DNA of 64,000 nucleotides. Source: Pelovirga terrestris (GTDB taxonomy: Bacteria > Desulfobacterota > Desulfuromonadia > Desulfuromonadales > Geopsychrobacteraceae). The stretch is taken from the NCBI RefSeq assembly GCF_014773365.1, contig NZ_JACWUN010000005.1, positions 62,001 to 126,000 of the forward strand. The letters run 5' to 3'. The position numbers were made by a program, and so were the translations under genes. The notes beneath the pieces are model-generated. The model saw only the letters and a program-made list of their open reading frames with translations, had not been told where the DNA came from and did no database searches. This document shows positions 38,394 through 47,363 of this stretch, piece by piece; position 1 is the stretch's first letter; each line of letters opens with the position of its first letter.

Positions 38394-39479
38394 ATGGCCG
38401 ACACCGGCGACGACGTCCAGCAGCTGCTTGCCCAGCTCCAACAGGAAAATGGAGAACTTAAGCAGACCTGTAAAGACCTGATCAGTGAGCGTGAAGCCCT
38501 GGAGATGGCGATTGCTGAGTTCGGCAATAAGCAACTGCGCGCCGAAATTGAAGCAATGGAACTGGAACAGATTTTTCTTTCTGTCAGTGATGCCATGTGG
38601 GCCGTCCGTGATGACGGCACTGTCATCAGAGCCAATGAGGCGATGGCAGCGCTGCTCGGCAAACCTACCGCTGACATTGTCGGCAAGAAATGCCGCGAGT
38701 TACTTGATTATGGCCTCTGCCAGAACAAATCCTGCCCGCTTGAGGTTTGCAGCAGCCGAAAGAAACAGGAATTTGACGTCAAACTGGCGACAGGAGCGGA
38801 TAGCTGCGATCATTACATTATCAGTGTCGCACCGCTGACCACTATTGTCGGCACCACCGCTATTATCAGCCAATTCAAAAACATTACAGCGCGCAAAGAA
38901 GCGGAGCAACAGCTTGAAGAGCTCAACCGGGCCCTATCAGAGATGGCCCGGATTGACGGCTTGACCGGCATTGCTAATCGGCGTTTTTTTGATGAAGTCT
39001 TTGATAAAGAATGGAAACGCCTGGCACGGGAACAGAATCAGAATTTTTCATTGATTCTCGCCGATATCGATTTTTTTAAAAAATATAACGACAACTATGG
39101 TCATCAGCAGGGGGACGATTGCCTGATCCTGGTTGGCAAGGCGCTTAAGGAGGCTATTCTGCGTCCAAGTGACATGGCTGCCCGCTATGGCGGTGAGGAA
39201 TTTGCCCTGTTGTTGCCGGGGAGTGATCTTGCCGGAGCCGGGACAGTTGGTGAACGTGCCCGTCAGGCGATTGTTGACCTGCAGATTCCCCACGAATATT
39301 CCGACGCTGCCGACCATATTACCATGAGCCTTGGGGGAGCCATGATGACCCCCAGCCACGATAACTCACCCGCCGATCTGATCGCATTGGCTGATCAGGC
39401 CCTCTATCGGGCAAAAGAAAGCGGCCGAAATACCCTGTACCTGCCGGACATCGACTACCCCCTCCCCACCCGGTCATAA
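38394..39479 (+). CDS. PAS-GGDEF diguanylate cyclase
   Basis: The 361-residue cytoplasmic protein has an N-terminal coiled coil (about 5-55), a PAS domain (about 58-175) and a GGDEF domain (about 185-355). The active site is GGEEF at residues 266-270, preceded at the usual distance by the RxxD inhibitory site (RPSD at 257-260), so it should make c-di-GMP and be product-inhibited. A cysteine-bearing run in the PAS domain (Cys-Pro and Cys-Ser around residues 105-125) might sense redox or a ligand. Its last six bases overlap the convergent rhomboid gene. Confidence 0.93.
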   Translation: MADTGDDVQQLLAQLQQENGELKQTCKDLISEREALEMAIAEFGNKQLRAEIEAMELEQIFLSVSDAMWAVRDDGTVIRANEAMAALLGKPTADIVGKKCRELLDYGLCQNKSCPLEVCSSRKKQEFDVKLATGADSCDHYIISVAPLTTIVGTTAIISQFKNITARKEAEQQLEELNRALSEMARIDGLTGIANRRFFDEVFDKEWKRLAREQNQNFSLILADIDFFKKYNDNYGHQQGDDCLILVGKALKEAILRPSDMAARYGGEEFALLLPGSDLAGAGTVGERARQAIVDLQIPHEYSDAADHITMSLGGAMMTPSHDNSPADLIALADQALYRAKESGRNTLYLPDIDYPLPTRS

Positions 39480-42976: not shown

Positions 42977-43037
42977 TAACATTCCGGCGGTCGGCAAGAC
43001 AGAAGAACTGTCGAATCTATTGAACATCAGAGAAGCG

Positions 43038-45122
43038 ATGAATCTCACTTGCAGCGACAACAAGAGCTACAACATCTCCAATCTCCCCACGGTCCCTCAT
43101 CTGTTGGTGGAACTGCTCAATCTTTGTCATCAGGAAGATGTCAGTTTTGACAAGTTCGCCGAGATGATCGGCAAAGATACCGGACTGACTTCACGAGTGA
43201 TGCACATTGCCAACACCCCGGCATTTCGACAATGGAAAGATGTCAGTGATCTGCGCCGGTTTTTGATCGTTCTGGGTATGCACAACCTCAAGACCATTGT
43301 TACCACTTCTGCCATTGAGCAGTTTTTTTACCAGTTCAGCAGTGCCTTTAATCACCAGTTACGCCAGATCTGGGTGCGATCCATCTGTTGTGCCAATCTG
43401 TGCGAGCGCCTGGCCCGCCTGCTTAACTATCACAAGCCCGGAGAGGCTTTTTTTGCCGGTCTTCTCCATCAGTCCGGCATGCTGATACTGATGATGAACG
43501 ATTGTGACAATTATCTACAGCTGCTGGACAGCTATTACGAGACCCCGTACAGTTTCTGTGAACAGGAAAGGGCGCTTCTACAAATCGATCACTGTGAGCT
43601 GGGTGCACTGTTGGCACAGAGCTGGAAGCTCGATTCCTTTATTGCCGATGCCATCCAGTTCCAGCGCGCTCCTGTTGAAGAATTGCGCAGTGCACCGACC
43701 CTGATAAAAATCCTCGCCGTTGCTGCGCGCTTTACCGGGAGCCGCAAGCCTGACGATAATCCCACAGCGCTGGCCATAGCTACGGAGCTACTCGGACTCA
43801 CTTCCGAAACATCACTTACGTGCCTTCAGGAATCACTGAACATAAGTATCGCCATGCTGACGGCCCTAAGGATTCCGAATGCCGCCTCTCTGATCAATCA
43901 CCAGCGCGAATCCGGACAACTCCCCGAGGATGAACACTCCGCCCCACAACTGCGCGCAGCGGTTCGCCGGATTGCGCTCAGCCAGGCTGGAGCGCCTGGC
44001 ACCAGCAAGGACCTGATCACTTTTGCCAAGCAGGTAAGAATCAGCATCTGTTCGGTCTTCCCTCTGCAACAGCTGCTGCTGCTCAGTTACGACGAGAAAA
44101 ATAATCTCCTGATTCCAATCAATGATCTTGAACTACATCAGTTAGACGACCTGCTCTGGGAAGACTCAGACAAGAAAAGTCGGGTTGTTGCCGCCCTCAA
44201 CTCCGCTAGCGAAAAAACCCTGACCACGAACGGGGCCACTATCGCAGATCGGCAATTACTCCGCCTTCTCGACAGTTCAACAGCGTCCCTGATCCCCCTG
44301 GTGTACCGGAATAAAAAAATCGGGTTGATAGCTCTGGGGCTGGGTGGTGAACAATCCCCTCTGGCAGTGAAGGACAAGGCCTTGTTGTCATTGTTCTGCG
44401 AGGAGATCGCCCGACGCTACGCTACCCTTAACAACACCCTGGATAATTCGCTTGGCATGGGGGCAAACCGGTTCAGACAGCTGGTGCATGAGATCAGCAA
44501 CCCATTGTCAATTATCAACAACTATCTTTATGTTCTCGGCAAAAAACTTCACCATGAGGATACGGCTCAGGAGGACTTGCGAACTATTTCCGAAGAAATT
44601 GATCGGATTGGCCGCATCCTGCTGCACGCCGGGGAAAGCAGCTCAGGAGCTAAAAGAAGTCAAGATATTACAAATATTAATGAACTGATATCCGACCTTG
44701 ATCGCATCCTGAACAATTCACTTTATTCTTCTGGACAGATCCAATCGGTTCTGCATCTTGACAAGAAGTTGCCTCCTGTACGATGTTCTTCCGACAAGCT
44801 CAAACAGATTTTGATTAATCTGCTCAAGAATGCGGCGGAAGCTCTTGACTGCGGTGGAACCATTCAGGTTTCCACCAGGGACAATATCTTCCAGGATCAG
44901 CAGCGTTATATTGAGATCACTATCAAAGACAACGGGCCCGGCATTGCACCTGCGGTGCTGCAGGGCTTGTTCAGCCCAGTCACCAGCACCAAAGAAGGGC
45001 ACTCCGGCCTGGGTTTGACAGTAGTCAACAACCTGATCAAGGATCTAGGTGGCAGCATCTCCTGCTTTTCAAGTGCCACCGGCACTGAGTTCAAAATTTT
45101 GCTGCCACGCGCTACAGGGTAA
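43038..45122 (+). CDS. HDOD domain-histidine kinase fusion
   Basis: The product is about 694 residues with no membrane segment. The N-terminal HDOD domain covers about 15-210 (LPTVPHLLVELLNLCHQ, IGKDTGLTSRVMHIANTPAF, then GLLHQSGMLILM). A central region of about 270-460 is compatible with a GAF domain. The C-terminal kinase has its H-box HEISNPLSII with the histidine near 484, N-box LLKNAAEAL, DNGPGI, and GHSGLGLTVVNNL. So it should autophosphorylate, probably to pass phosphate to the response regulator next door. I prefer ATG 43038; a TTG at 43020 is possible. Two palindromes lie just upstream. Confidence 0.9.
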   Translation: MNLTCSDNKSYNISNLPTVPHLLVELLNLCHQEDVSFDKFAEMIGKDTGLTSRVMHIANTPAFRQWKDVSDLRRFLIVLGMHNLKTIVTTSAIEQFFYQFSSAFNHQLRQIWVRSICCANLCERLARLLNYHKPGEAFFAGLLHQSGMLILMMNDCDNYLQLLDSYYETPYSFCEQERALLQIDHCELGALLAQSWKLDSFIADAIQFQRAPVEELRSAPTLIKILAVAARFTGSRKPDDNPTALAIATELLGLTSETSLTCLQESLNISIAMLTALRIPNAASLINHQRESGQLPEDEHSAPQLRAAVRRIALSQAGAPGTSKDLITFAKQVRISICSVFPLQQLLLLSYDEKNNLLIPINDLELHQLDDLLWEDSDKKSRVVAALNSASEKTLTTNGATIADRQLLRLLDSSTASLIPLVYRNKKIGLIALGLGGEQSPLAVKDKALLSLFCEEIARRYATLNNTLDNSLGMGANRFRQLVHEISNPLSIINNYLYVLGKKLHHEDTAQEDLRTISEEIDRIGRILLHAGESSSGAKRSQDITNINELISDLDRILNNSLYSSGQIQSVLHLDKKLPPVRCSSDKLKQILINLLKNAAEALDCGGTIQVSTRDNIFQDQQRYIEITIKDNGPGIAPAVLQGLFSPVTSTKEGHSGLGLTVVNNLIKDLGGSISCFSSATGTEFKILLPRATG

Positions 45123-45203
45123 AACCGCCACTGAAAATATGGCCGGTTGCGGGGACGAAAAAAAACCTAATTAAAAACGGCGGGGGAAAGAGAATTAAAA
45201 CCA

Positions 45204-47363
45204 ATGTTGATTCTGATCGTAGATGACGAAATTAAGGTTGCCCAGAGCTTGCAACTGATCCTCAAGCTGGAGGGGTTTGAAGCCCAGATTGTAACATCGG
45301 GGGCAGCAGCTTTTGAAGAGTTAGCGCGTCATCCTTACGATATAGCCCTCCTTGATCTGAACATGCCGCAGATTGATGGCATGACTGTTCTTGACCACAT
45401 CACCCGCAACCACCCTGACACCAGCGTCATTGTGGTCAGCGGCGAGTCCGAAATCAGAAAAGCTGTTCACGTTCTGAAGGCCGGAGCCAGGGACTTTGTT
45501 CGCAAACCCTACACCCCGGAAGAACTGATTTTTTCCATCAATAACGTGCGTGAAAAAATCCAACTGGAACGTGACAATCAAGCGATGATTGCGACGCTGC
45601 AGGAATCAGAGGCCCTCCATAAGTTTATTGTTCACCACTCACCCGATCTGGTCTATATGCTCGACCATCAGGGCAACTTCACCTTCGTCAACAACAATAC
45701 GGCAGAACGACTGGGTTACAAGAGACAAGAACTAATGGGTAGACACTACAGTAGTGTTGTCTACCCTGACGATCTGGACCTTGCGCAACGATACTTTATG
45801 ACCAACGCAACCTTACCCCACCACGAAAGTATCGAGTTGCGCCTGCAAGGCAAAAACAAGGGTAATATCATCCATGCTGAAATCCGCTCGATTCATATCG
45901 AACGAAAGCTTGCTGGAGGCTACCGTTTAGGCCGTGCTCGCAAGCCGGATACCCATGCTATCGGCACCTATGGCGTTGCCCGGGACATCAGCGAAAAAAA
46001 ACGCGCAGAAGAAATTATCCGCTTTCAGAATAACCACGACCTGATGACCGGCTTACCCAACCGCAGTCTCTTCCATGAGCGGCTGGAGCAGTTACTCAGT
46101 CGAGCGCGCAGCACCAACGAAACCTTTGCCCTGATCCTGATCGATATCAATCGTTTTAAGCTGATCAATGATACCTACAGTCAAGCAGTTGGTGACAGCG
46201 TCTTGCGCAGCTTCGCCGAACGCCTGGGACGCTGCTGCACAGCGGTTGACACCCTGGCACGCATCGGCGGTGATGAGTTTGCCCTGCTGATGCCTACCAG
46301 TGGTCCGGCCGACACTTTTGCCCGAGCAAGAGCCGAACGCATAGTTGAAGAGACCATGATGCCGATTCGCGCCAATGGCCACGACATCCATCTGAGTGTC
46401 AGCCTCGGTATCACCATTTATCCGGACCATGGCAACAGCTGTCAGGATCTTATGAAAAATGTTGACACCGTGCTCTGCAATCTGAAAAACCGCTCCATCA
46501 ACTCCTATGGTTTCTACAATACAACCCTGGAGAACAAAAACAGTCAAAAGGTGTTTACCGAAAATCTGATCAGGCAGGCACTAAAGAACGATCAACTGAT
46601 TGTACATTACCAACCCCTGGTCCAGGTCAGCACCTTGAAGGTAGCCAGTATAGAAGCTCTGGCCAGAATTCAATTATCCTCCGGCAACATTCTTATGCCT
46701 ACTCAATTTATCGAGACGGCAGAAGAAACCCCACTGATTCATGACATTGGCGCGCGCGTCATTGAAATTGCCTGCCGCGACCTCAAAGATTTAAACCGCA
46801 GGGGAATCAAAACCCAGGTGTCGATCAATGTCTCTGCGGTGCAGTTGCAGATGGAAAATTTCGCCGGAATAGTACTGGAGCGGATCCATTTCCATCGCCT
46901 CCGGCCACAGGACATTGAACTGGAACTGACAGAGAATGTGTTGATTCAGGATCTCAAAACCACCGTTGCCAACATCGTTGAACTCGCCGGTGCCGGAGTG
47001 AACATTGCCGTGGATGACTTTGGTACCGGGTATTCGTCCCTCTGTTATCTTGATCGTCTACCCCTCAACACCCTCAAGCTGGACAAGTCCTTCATCCAGA
47101 AAATTACGCCGGAGAACCCTGCTGAGCCGATTATTCCAGCCATGATCAGAGTCGCCGAGGGGCTGCAATTACGCTTTGTCGCCGAGGGGATAGAAACCCG
47201 GCAACAGCACGAATACCTGTTAATCCACGGGGGGACAATTGGTCAGGGATATTACTATAGTCGGCCCGTTGCAAAGGAACAGATCATCGACTATATGTTA
47301 GCGCATCATGATACGGCGGGAACATTCCAGCAAACTAAAAGCCAACAGGCGAGTCCCGGGTAG
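45204..47363 (+). CDS. response regulator with PAS, GGDEF and EAL domains
   Basis: The 719-residue protein has a receiver (1-118) with D7-D8, the phosphoacceptor D51 (LLDLNMP) and the conserved Lys near 101. A PAS domain follows (about 135-265), then GGDEF (about 275-435) with the intact GGDEF at 355-359, and EAL (about 450-700) with EAL at 484. The EAL domain also has the other catalytic motifs, including ELTEN, DDFGTGYSSL, KLDKSFI and AEGIET. Both c-di-GMP synthesis and breakdown sites look complete. It lies 81 bp after the HDOD-kinase and is its likely partner. GGGGGAAAGAG precedes the ATG. Confidence 0.95.
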   Translation: MLILIVDDEIKVAQSLQLILKLEGFEAQIVTSGAAAFEELARHPYDIALLDLNMPQIDGMTVLDHITRNHPDTSVIVVSGESEIRKAVHVLKAGARDFVRKPYTPEELIFSINNVREKIQLERDNQAMIATLQESEALHKFIVHHSPDLVYMLDHQGNFTFVNNNTAERLGYKRQELMGRHYSSVVYPDDLDLAQRYFMTNATLPHHESIELRLQGKNKGNIIHAEIRSIHIERKLAGGYRLGRARKPDTHAIGTYGVARDISEKKRAEEIIRFQNNHDLMTGLPNRSLFHERLEQLLSRARSTNETFALILIDINRFKLINDTYSQAVGDSVLRSFAERLGRCCTAVDTLARIGGDEFALLMPTSGPADTFARARAERIVEETMMPIRANGHDIHLSVSLGITIYPDHGNSCQDLMKNVDTVLCNLKNRSINSYGFYNTTLENKNSQKVFTENLIRQALKNDQLIVHYQPLVQVSTLKVASIEALARIQLSSGNILMPTQFIETAEETPLIHDIGARVIEIACRDLKDLNRRGIKTQVSINVSAVQLQMENFAGIVLERIHFHRLRPQDIELELTENVLIQDLKTTVANIVELAGAGVNIAVDDFGTGYSSLCYLDRLPLNTLKLDKSFIQKITPENPAEPIIPAMIRVAEGLQLRFVAEGIETRQQHEYLLIHGGTIGQGYYYSRPVAKEQIIDYMLAHHDTAGTFQQTKSQQASPG

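Follow-up and report, generated by a model that had tools for sequence, protein, structure and literature searches.

A conserved gene pair for an HDOD histidine kinase with a GAF-like domain and a REC-PAS-GGDEF-EAL response regulator in Pelovirga terrestris, and the exchange of its output among relatives

Domains and catalytic residues at the locus

Two neighbouring genes in a 64,000-nucleotide stretch of the genome of Pelovirga terrestris (the whole of which we call the window) are the subject of this work. The first encodes a cytoplasmic histidine kinase (HK) with HDOD, GAF-like, HisKA and HATPase_c domains (43038..45122), and the second a response regulator (RR) with REC, PAS, GGDEF and EAL domains (45204..47363). 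Both lie on the forward strand and are separated by a gap of 81 bp (45123-45203); the extent of the pair (43038-47363) and its spacing had been given correctly by an earlier reading made from the letters of the DNA (the sequence-only reading). The longest open reading frame (ORF) of the kinase begins with TTG at 43020, but the start is best taken as the ATG at 43038, residue 7 of this ORF, since the ORFs of many relatives begin at that methionine.

The HDOD domain (residues 22-218 of the longest ORF; 43083..43673) scores 158.8 bits against the Pfam PF08668 cut-off of 22.9, which places the protein in the HDOD family. Its HD motif is degenerate and reads H150-Q151, so that no hydrolase activity would be expected of it, and a metal-dependent HD hydrolase was rejected for the window at the motif level. 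The aspartate of this motif is present in 30 of the 79 family members described below and absent from the other 49, the window's protein included. By sequence, the nearest solved structures are 3hc1 (the best, E 3.5e-26) and 3m1t; the former is an uncharacterised HDOD protein with a 305-residue chain, for which no kinase match is listed.

The sequence-only reading had placed HDOD, a probable GAF and a complete cytoplasmic kinase in one chain. HDOD and kinase were both recovered, and no transmembrane segment was found in the window's kinase (best 19-residue hydropathy 1.36). As for the GAF-like domain (about residues 312-470; 43953..44429), no Pfam GAF model passes its cut-off in the window's protein, while two relatives, L191 and L186, have Pfam GAF matches above cut-off in the corresponding stretch; the family profile of the domain also has hits. 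GAF_2 matches 7 of 34 aligned members at E<=0.01, and several closer relatives match weakly. The HisKA domain (residues 486-534; 44475..44621) falls just under its cut-off in the window (24.1 against 26.9 bits) and matches 33 of the 34 aligned members at E<=0.01. It carries the phospho-acceptor H490 in the motif HEISN (44487-44489), a histidine retained in 78 of the 79 family kinases. The HATPase_c domain (residues 591-698; 44790..45113; 72.3 bits) has the N, G1, F and G2 boxes. With H490, E491, N494, N600, N604, D637, G639, G641, F651, G663 and G665 all present, the protein is predicted to be a complete HisKA-type kinase able to autophosphorylate. Here and in the regulator, the residues checked are those that we take to be catalytic.

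All four domains of the regulator pass their Pfam cut-offs: REC (residues 3-110; 45210..45533), PAS (141-231; 45624..45896), GGDEF (277-431; 46032..46496) and EAL (455-688; 46566..47267). The REC phospho-acceptor is D51 (45354-45356), as had been proposed, in a pocket with D7, D8 and K101; D51 and K101 occur in 60 of 60 regulators. The GGDEF motif is intact (46266-46280) and is accompanied by D314, N322 and D331, the last of which we take to occupy the position of GacA S347. In EAL the metal and base residues E484, N542, E572, E574, D604, D605, K625, E661, E664 and Q681 are all present. This is the signature of a dual GGDEF-EAL response regulator, predicted to be able both to make and to break cyclic di-GMP (c-di-GMP). 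The inhibitory I-site of GGDEF (RxxD) reads TAVD (46239-46250), its arginine being replaced by T346. That arginine is kept in 53 of the 60 regulators; it is threonine in the four window-type copies of the window's genus (that in the window and L073-L075) and glutamine in three others (L078, L086 and L088).

The claim that both catalytic sites are intact thus holds for the window, and needs qualification for its relatives. Among 19 window-type pairs (hereafter A pairs; L080, whose contig bears no RR, and L089, whose RR ORF is split, are excluded), the kinase histidine, the REC pocket and the ten EAL residues are kept in every one, while the second glycine of GGDEF is serine (GSDEF) in 6.

Conservation of the two genes as neighbours

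We surveyed the host and 59 relatives (60 genomes) with thresholds of E<=1e-30 for the kinase and E<=1e-100 for the regulator, together with a class sample of 146 genomes, 47 of them with a match, and a phylum sample of 198; a few genomes belong to more than one sample. The family was gathered with a full-length profile and HDOD was required, so that HDOD-kinase families of other kinds could have escaped it; the survey covers one phylum, and hundreds of contigs make up many of the assemblies used. Co-occurrence, a check that the sequence-only reading had proposed, is close: the kinase is found in 35 of the 60 genomes and the regulator in 36, the extra one (G005) owing to a matched protein without REC.

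Separation of the two genes had been named as the outcome that would speak against a functional pair, and we found the opposite. In the first 41 loci the kinase adjoins the regulator on the same strand in 40, the 41st kinase lying at a contig end. A REC-first protein comes next in 37 of the 38 loci added from the class and phylum samples, which were picked by their kinase match alone. Altogether, 77 of the 79 HDOD-kinase genes are followed by a REC-first protein on the same strand. The partners comprise 60 REC-PAS-GGDEF-EAL proteins, one split over two ORFs (L089), 13 of the form REC-(PAS-)HK-REC and three whose REC is cut by a contig end; the remaining two kinases, the contig-end case and L200, have none. 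Judged from longest-ORF starts, an overlap of 1 or 4 bases is seen in 19 of the 79 gene pairs, as in translational coupling.

The two genes are also adjacent in 14 further loci (L203-L216), although these provide no independent test because they were fetched on close matches of both genes; among them the kinase ORF of L212 is split in two and the kinases of L206, L214, L215 and L216 are cut at contig ends. Three fragments (G144:C53, G138:C125 and G019:C333) were left out, and L218-L221 (fragments at contig ends in G010, G006 and G023), L222 (no REC), L223, L224 and L217 were inspected and kept out of the pair counts.

Only one kinase of the 79, L200 (G127:C26, 5995-8178), has readable flanks and no regulator. 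This kinase carries H490D and N600Y, the latter removing an N-box asparagine, and has no Pfam HisKA match. Furthermore, the main clades of the kinase tree and of the REC tree mirror each other, as judged by eye. The conserved neighbourhood, the shared main clades and the fact that the orphan is a dead kinase support the view that kinase and regulator would be cognate partners in an HK-RR system that acts on c-di-GMP.

Several observations weigh against this view or add nothing to it. The family is patchy: at the thresholds used neither gene was found in 24 of the 60 near genomes, and matches occur in 18 of the 198 genomes of the phylum sample. Covariation between the dimerisation and histidine phosphotransfer (DHp) helices of the kinase and REC (mutual information with average product correction; 77 pairs, effective number of sequences 41) gave no interface enrichment, the DHp-alpha1 x REC-alpha1 fraction of the top 60 being 0.017 against an expected 0.033. 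The AlphaFold model of the kinase, built from three sequences, reached a pLDDT of 36 and a pTM of 0.23, too low for the model to be used. Moreover, in L213 and L214 (G031 and G019), copies of the diverged B pair described below, a kinase with H490Y adjoins an intact regulator, so the loss of a working kinase next door need not entail loss of the RR, and in L223 (G041) a regulator stands without an HDOD kinase beside it.

Exchange of the output behind a conserved core

The partner of the kinase differs between lineages. In the window's class it is a full REC-PAS-GGDEF-EAL protein in 60 of 65 loci, whereas in the other classes of the phylum (14 loci) it is REC-(PAS-)HK-REC in 12 and cut in 2. 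REC comes first in 13 of 13 HK-REC partners. A Pfam scan of eight of these placed PAS after REC in L185, L186, L188, L189, L190, L191 and L198 and found none in L171; in the L187 partner PAS was found by the family PAS profile.

One HK-REC locus, L171, lies within the window's class. Its REC falls inside a 16-member clade (100/100 support) in which every other member either is cut or has a c-di-GMP partner, and its kinase falls in the matching clade; the output has therefore been exchanged behind an orthologous REC. On the kinase tree, 3 changes of the HK-REC label are needed against a mean of 12.3 after shuffling (the tree being unrooted for the older change), and on the REC tree the second RECs of the hybrids are set apart from the first RECs (93/91). 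The output is thus swapped behind a conserved HDOD-kinase/REC core. The transferable unit can be described as an HDOD-GAF-HK/REC-(PAS) front end, with either c-di-GMP enzymes or a second kinase-receiver (phosphorelay) as output.

In two loci with a REC-PAS-HK-REC partner, L185 (4768-7914) and L187 (4936-8055), a ParA/MinD-like ATPase domain is fused N-terminally to the HDOD-GAF-kinase.

A second, diverged pair

Many relatives, and the host genome itself, contain a second diverged pair (B). The B pair of the host is 29% (kinase) and 35% (regulator) identical to the window pair, and its HDOD (L106, G000:C46) scores 53 bits, compared with 159 for that of the window. The B regulator of each of the four species sampled from the genus (L106, L104, L203 and L204) has lost D7/D8 of REC, where it reads VGEQ, and carries K625M/E661K in EAL, while GGDEF and the I-site arginine are kept. 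The A regulators of the same four species show the reverse: D7/D8, K625/E661 and GGDEF are kept and only the I-site arginine is lost, to threonine. These residues suggest that the B regulator of this genus would tend to synthesis only and could hardly be phosphorylated.

We make no claim of a linkage between loss of the HExxN asparagine in the kinase and loss of E661 in EAL, as a sign test cannot reach significance here. Both residues are lost in 8 loci, E661 only in 2, the asparagine only in 2, and both are kept in 61 (n=73; the E661 count omits L089, with its split RR, and L177, with its cut RR). Of the 4 independent pairs on the tree, 1 changes in the same direction and 3 show no difference.

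Proposed mechanism and alternatives

We propose that the two proteins form a cytoplasmic two-component system in which the HDOD-GAF-HK would read an intracellular signal through HDOD and/or GAF. The kinase would autophosphorylate on H490 and hand its phosphate on to D51 of the partner encoded in the same operon, where REC phosphorylation, together with PAS, would set the balance of GGDEF (synthesis) and EAL (breakdown), and hence the level of c-di-GMP. Judging from domains, residues and gene order, we consider it probable that phosphotransfer from H490 to D51 controls this balance; the transfer itself, the sensory role of HDOD or GAF and the direction of the output are what we infer. Since the EAL and REC residues of the A pairs are invariant while their GGDEF motif varies, the conserved net output of these pairs is more likely to be c-di-GMP breakdown.

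GAF domains are classical small-molecule sensors, and GAF may be the sensor here, with HDOD acting only as a platform for dimerisation or docking. The missing HD-motif aspartate in the window's protein and in the majority of members agrees with this possibility, as does the divergence of HDOD in the host B copy, whose kinase part is still recognisable. On the other hand, HDOD occurs in all 79 collected kinases, a weak argument because it was required for inclusion, and the GAF-like part scores below HDOD against the family profile in each far locus with both, an equally weak one because that part is shorter. Taken together, a GAF sensor appears quite possible, if short of probable. The sequence-only reading, in which an HDOD input controls phosphorylation of the c-di-GMP enzyme, is supported in its pairing of the two proteins by the neighbours, the tree clades and the dead orphan, but not in its choice of HDOD as the input.

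A further possibility is that HDOD (or GAF) senses c-di-GMP or another cyclic nucleotide, which would close a feedback loop with the product setting the phosphorylation of the RR. In the accessible part of PMC6543031, SadB, a YbaK-HDOD protein of Pseudomonas fluorescens, is reported to bind c-di-GMP with a dissociation constant of 0.23 uM; that part does not settle which of its two domains does so. Such binding makes a loop possible, yet we think it unlikely for the window. If it were true, the loss of the I-site in the window's genus would mean that product inhibition had shifted from enzyme to kinase. On this reading HDOD-GAF-HK/REC-PAS would, more widely, be a portable front end for intracellular sensing, wired to c-di-GMP or to a phosphorelay according to lineage.

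Alternatively, the regulator may be mainly a degenerate signalling platform for which c-di-GMP turnover is unimportant. The B copies of the genus, with EAL catalytic and REC acidic residues lost, the GSDEF motif of some A copies and the replacement of the output by HK-REC would fit such a role. It is nevertheless improbable for the window pair, given that every checked GGDEF and EAL residue is present in the window copy and that the EAL residues are intact throughout the A pairs. Finally, Hypr-type GGDEF enzymes exist in Geobacter (PMC6456294, where the available text has GacA S347 in a construct list), but synthesis of cyclic GMP-AMP in place of c-di-GMP is very improbable here and was rejected at the signature level, since the substrate-site aspartate D331 is unreplaced in 60 of 60 regulators.

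Relation to known systems

The sequence-only reading held that HDOD domains usually occur alone or with EAL/GGDEF. This is too narrow, as published examples accessible to us include REC-HDOD proteins (PMC4114195) and the YbaK-HDOD protein SadB (PMC6543031). The REC-HDOD regulators GsmR and DVU0330 (PMC4114195), and MmoQ, named in PDB lists, likewise put HDOD in a two-component pathway; there, however, HDOD is the output, whereas in the window's kinase it stands at the input end. According to the part of PMC4114195 available, c-di-GMP hydrolysis was not found for DVU0330, and GsmR had no phosphatase or phosphodiesterase activity. In the same text, DVU0408 of Desulfovibrio vulgaris is a REC-GGDEF-EAL protein and thus, like the window's regulator, has a receiver before a dual GGDEF-EAL in a two-component setting; that part mentions no HDOD kinase partner for it, while the window's RR has both an HDOD-GAF kinase partner and a PAS, each of them conserved. 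SadB shares with the window pair the presence of HDOD in a c-di-GMP pathway, but has no kinase in what PMC6543031 describes in its accessible part. In the EAL-HDOD phosphodiesterases ZpdA and CdgJ (PMC12607878, available portion), HDOD acts with an EAL enzyme, as in the window pair, although there the two domains share one chain and here two proteins would be joined by the predicted phosphotransfer.

We did not find an HDOD-kinase pair announced in the titles, or described in the portions available, of the open-access HDOD literature; most subscription papers lie outside this scope, and the result is no proof of novelty. The word HDOD is absent from a census of signalling proteins (PMC1183210). 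The mechanistic role of HDOD domains is stated not to be established (PMC6543031, in part), and an HDOD at a kinase input with a fixed, readable partner would make its function assayable through phosphotransfer. Moreover, the natural output swap and the dead-kinase orphan offer built-in comparisons. In Geobacter-like metal reducers, the level of c-di-GMP affects biofilm and extracellular electron transfer genes, according to the accessible part of PMC12285248.

Genomic surroundings

The window belongs to a 3.1 Mb, Geobacter-like genome, whose closest named relatives are a Desulfuromonadales metagenome-assembled genome (MAG; 86% identity) and a Geobacteraceae MAG (68% identity). A contig scan returned two close relatives and two kinase-only matches. 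None of the plasmid records covers 80% of the query, and the best 20 of 543 matches hit the kinase part.

Pfam finds 11 HDOD matches over cut-off in the host, two of which share an ORF with HATPase_c by their coordinates: the window gene and its paralogue on contig C46. On contig C3 (G000:C3:99744-100729), the HDOD match of a stand-alone HDOD protein is accompanied, at a distance of about 100 bases and in the same orientation, by a separate histidine kinase match, possibly a split version of the HDOD-kinase idea. EAL matches over cut-off number 10 in the host. REC is present as well in at least five of the proteins concerned (window, C46, C3, C6 and C10), and for two further ones (C4 and C22) the fetched locus ends before the N-terminus; hence it is by itself not unusual here for GGDEF-EAL proteins to be under two-component control.

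The window-type locus is syntenic, in the order FAA hydrolase, DUF2520, HK, RR, PPDK and glyS, with flanking ORFs matched in many relatives at more than 35% identity (16 matched ORFs for DUF2520, 15 for FAA hydrolase, 17 for PPDK and 15 for glyS). Between 42850 and 47500 we counted 7 promoter-like sites, against a mean of 4.0 after shuffling, and 6 terminator-like sites, against 5.0; none of the latter falls in the 81-bp gap. Another PAS-GGDEF gene (38394-39479) lies a few kb upstream of the pair in the same orientation and is matched by ORFs at 57-79% identity in three related loci.

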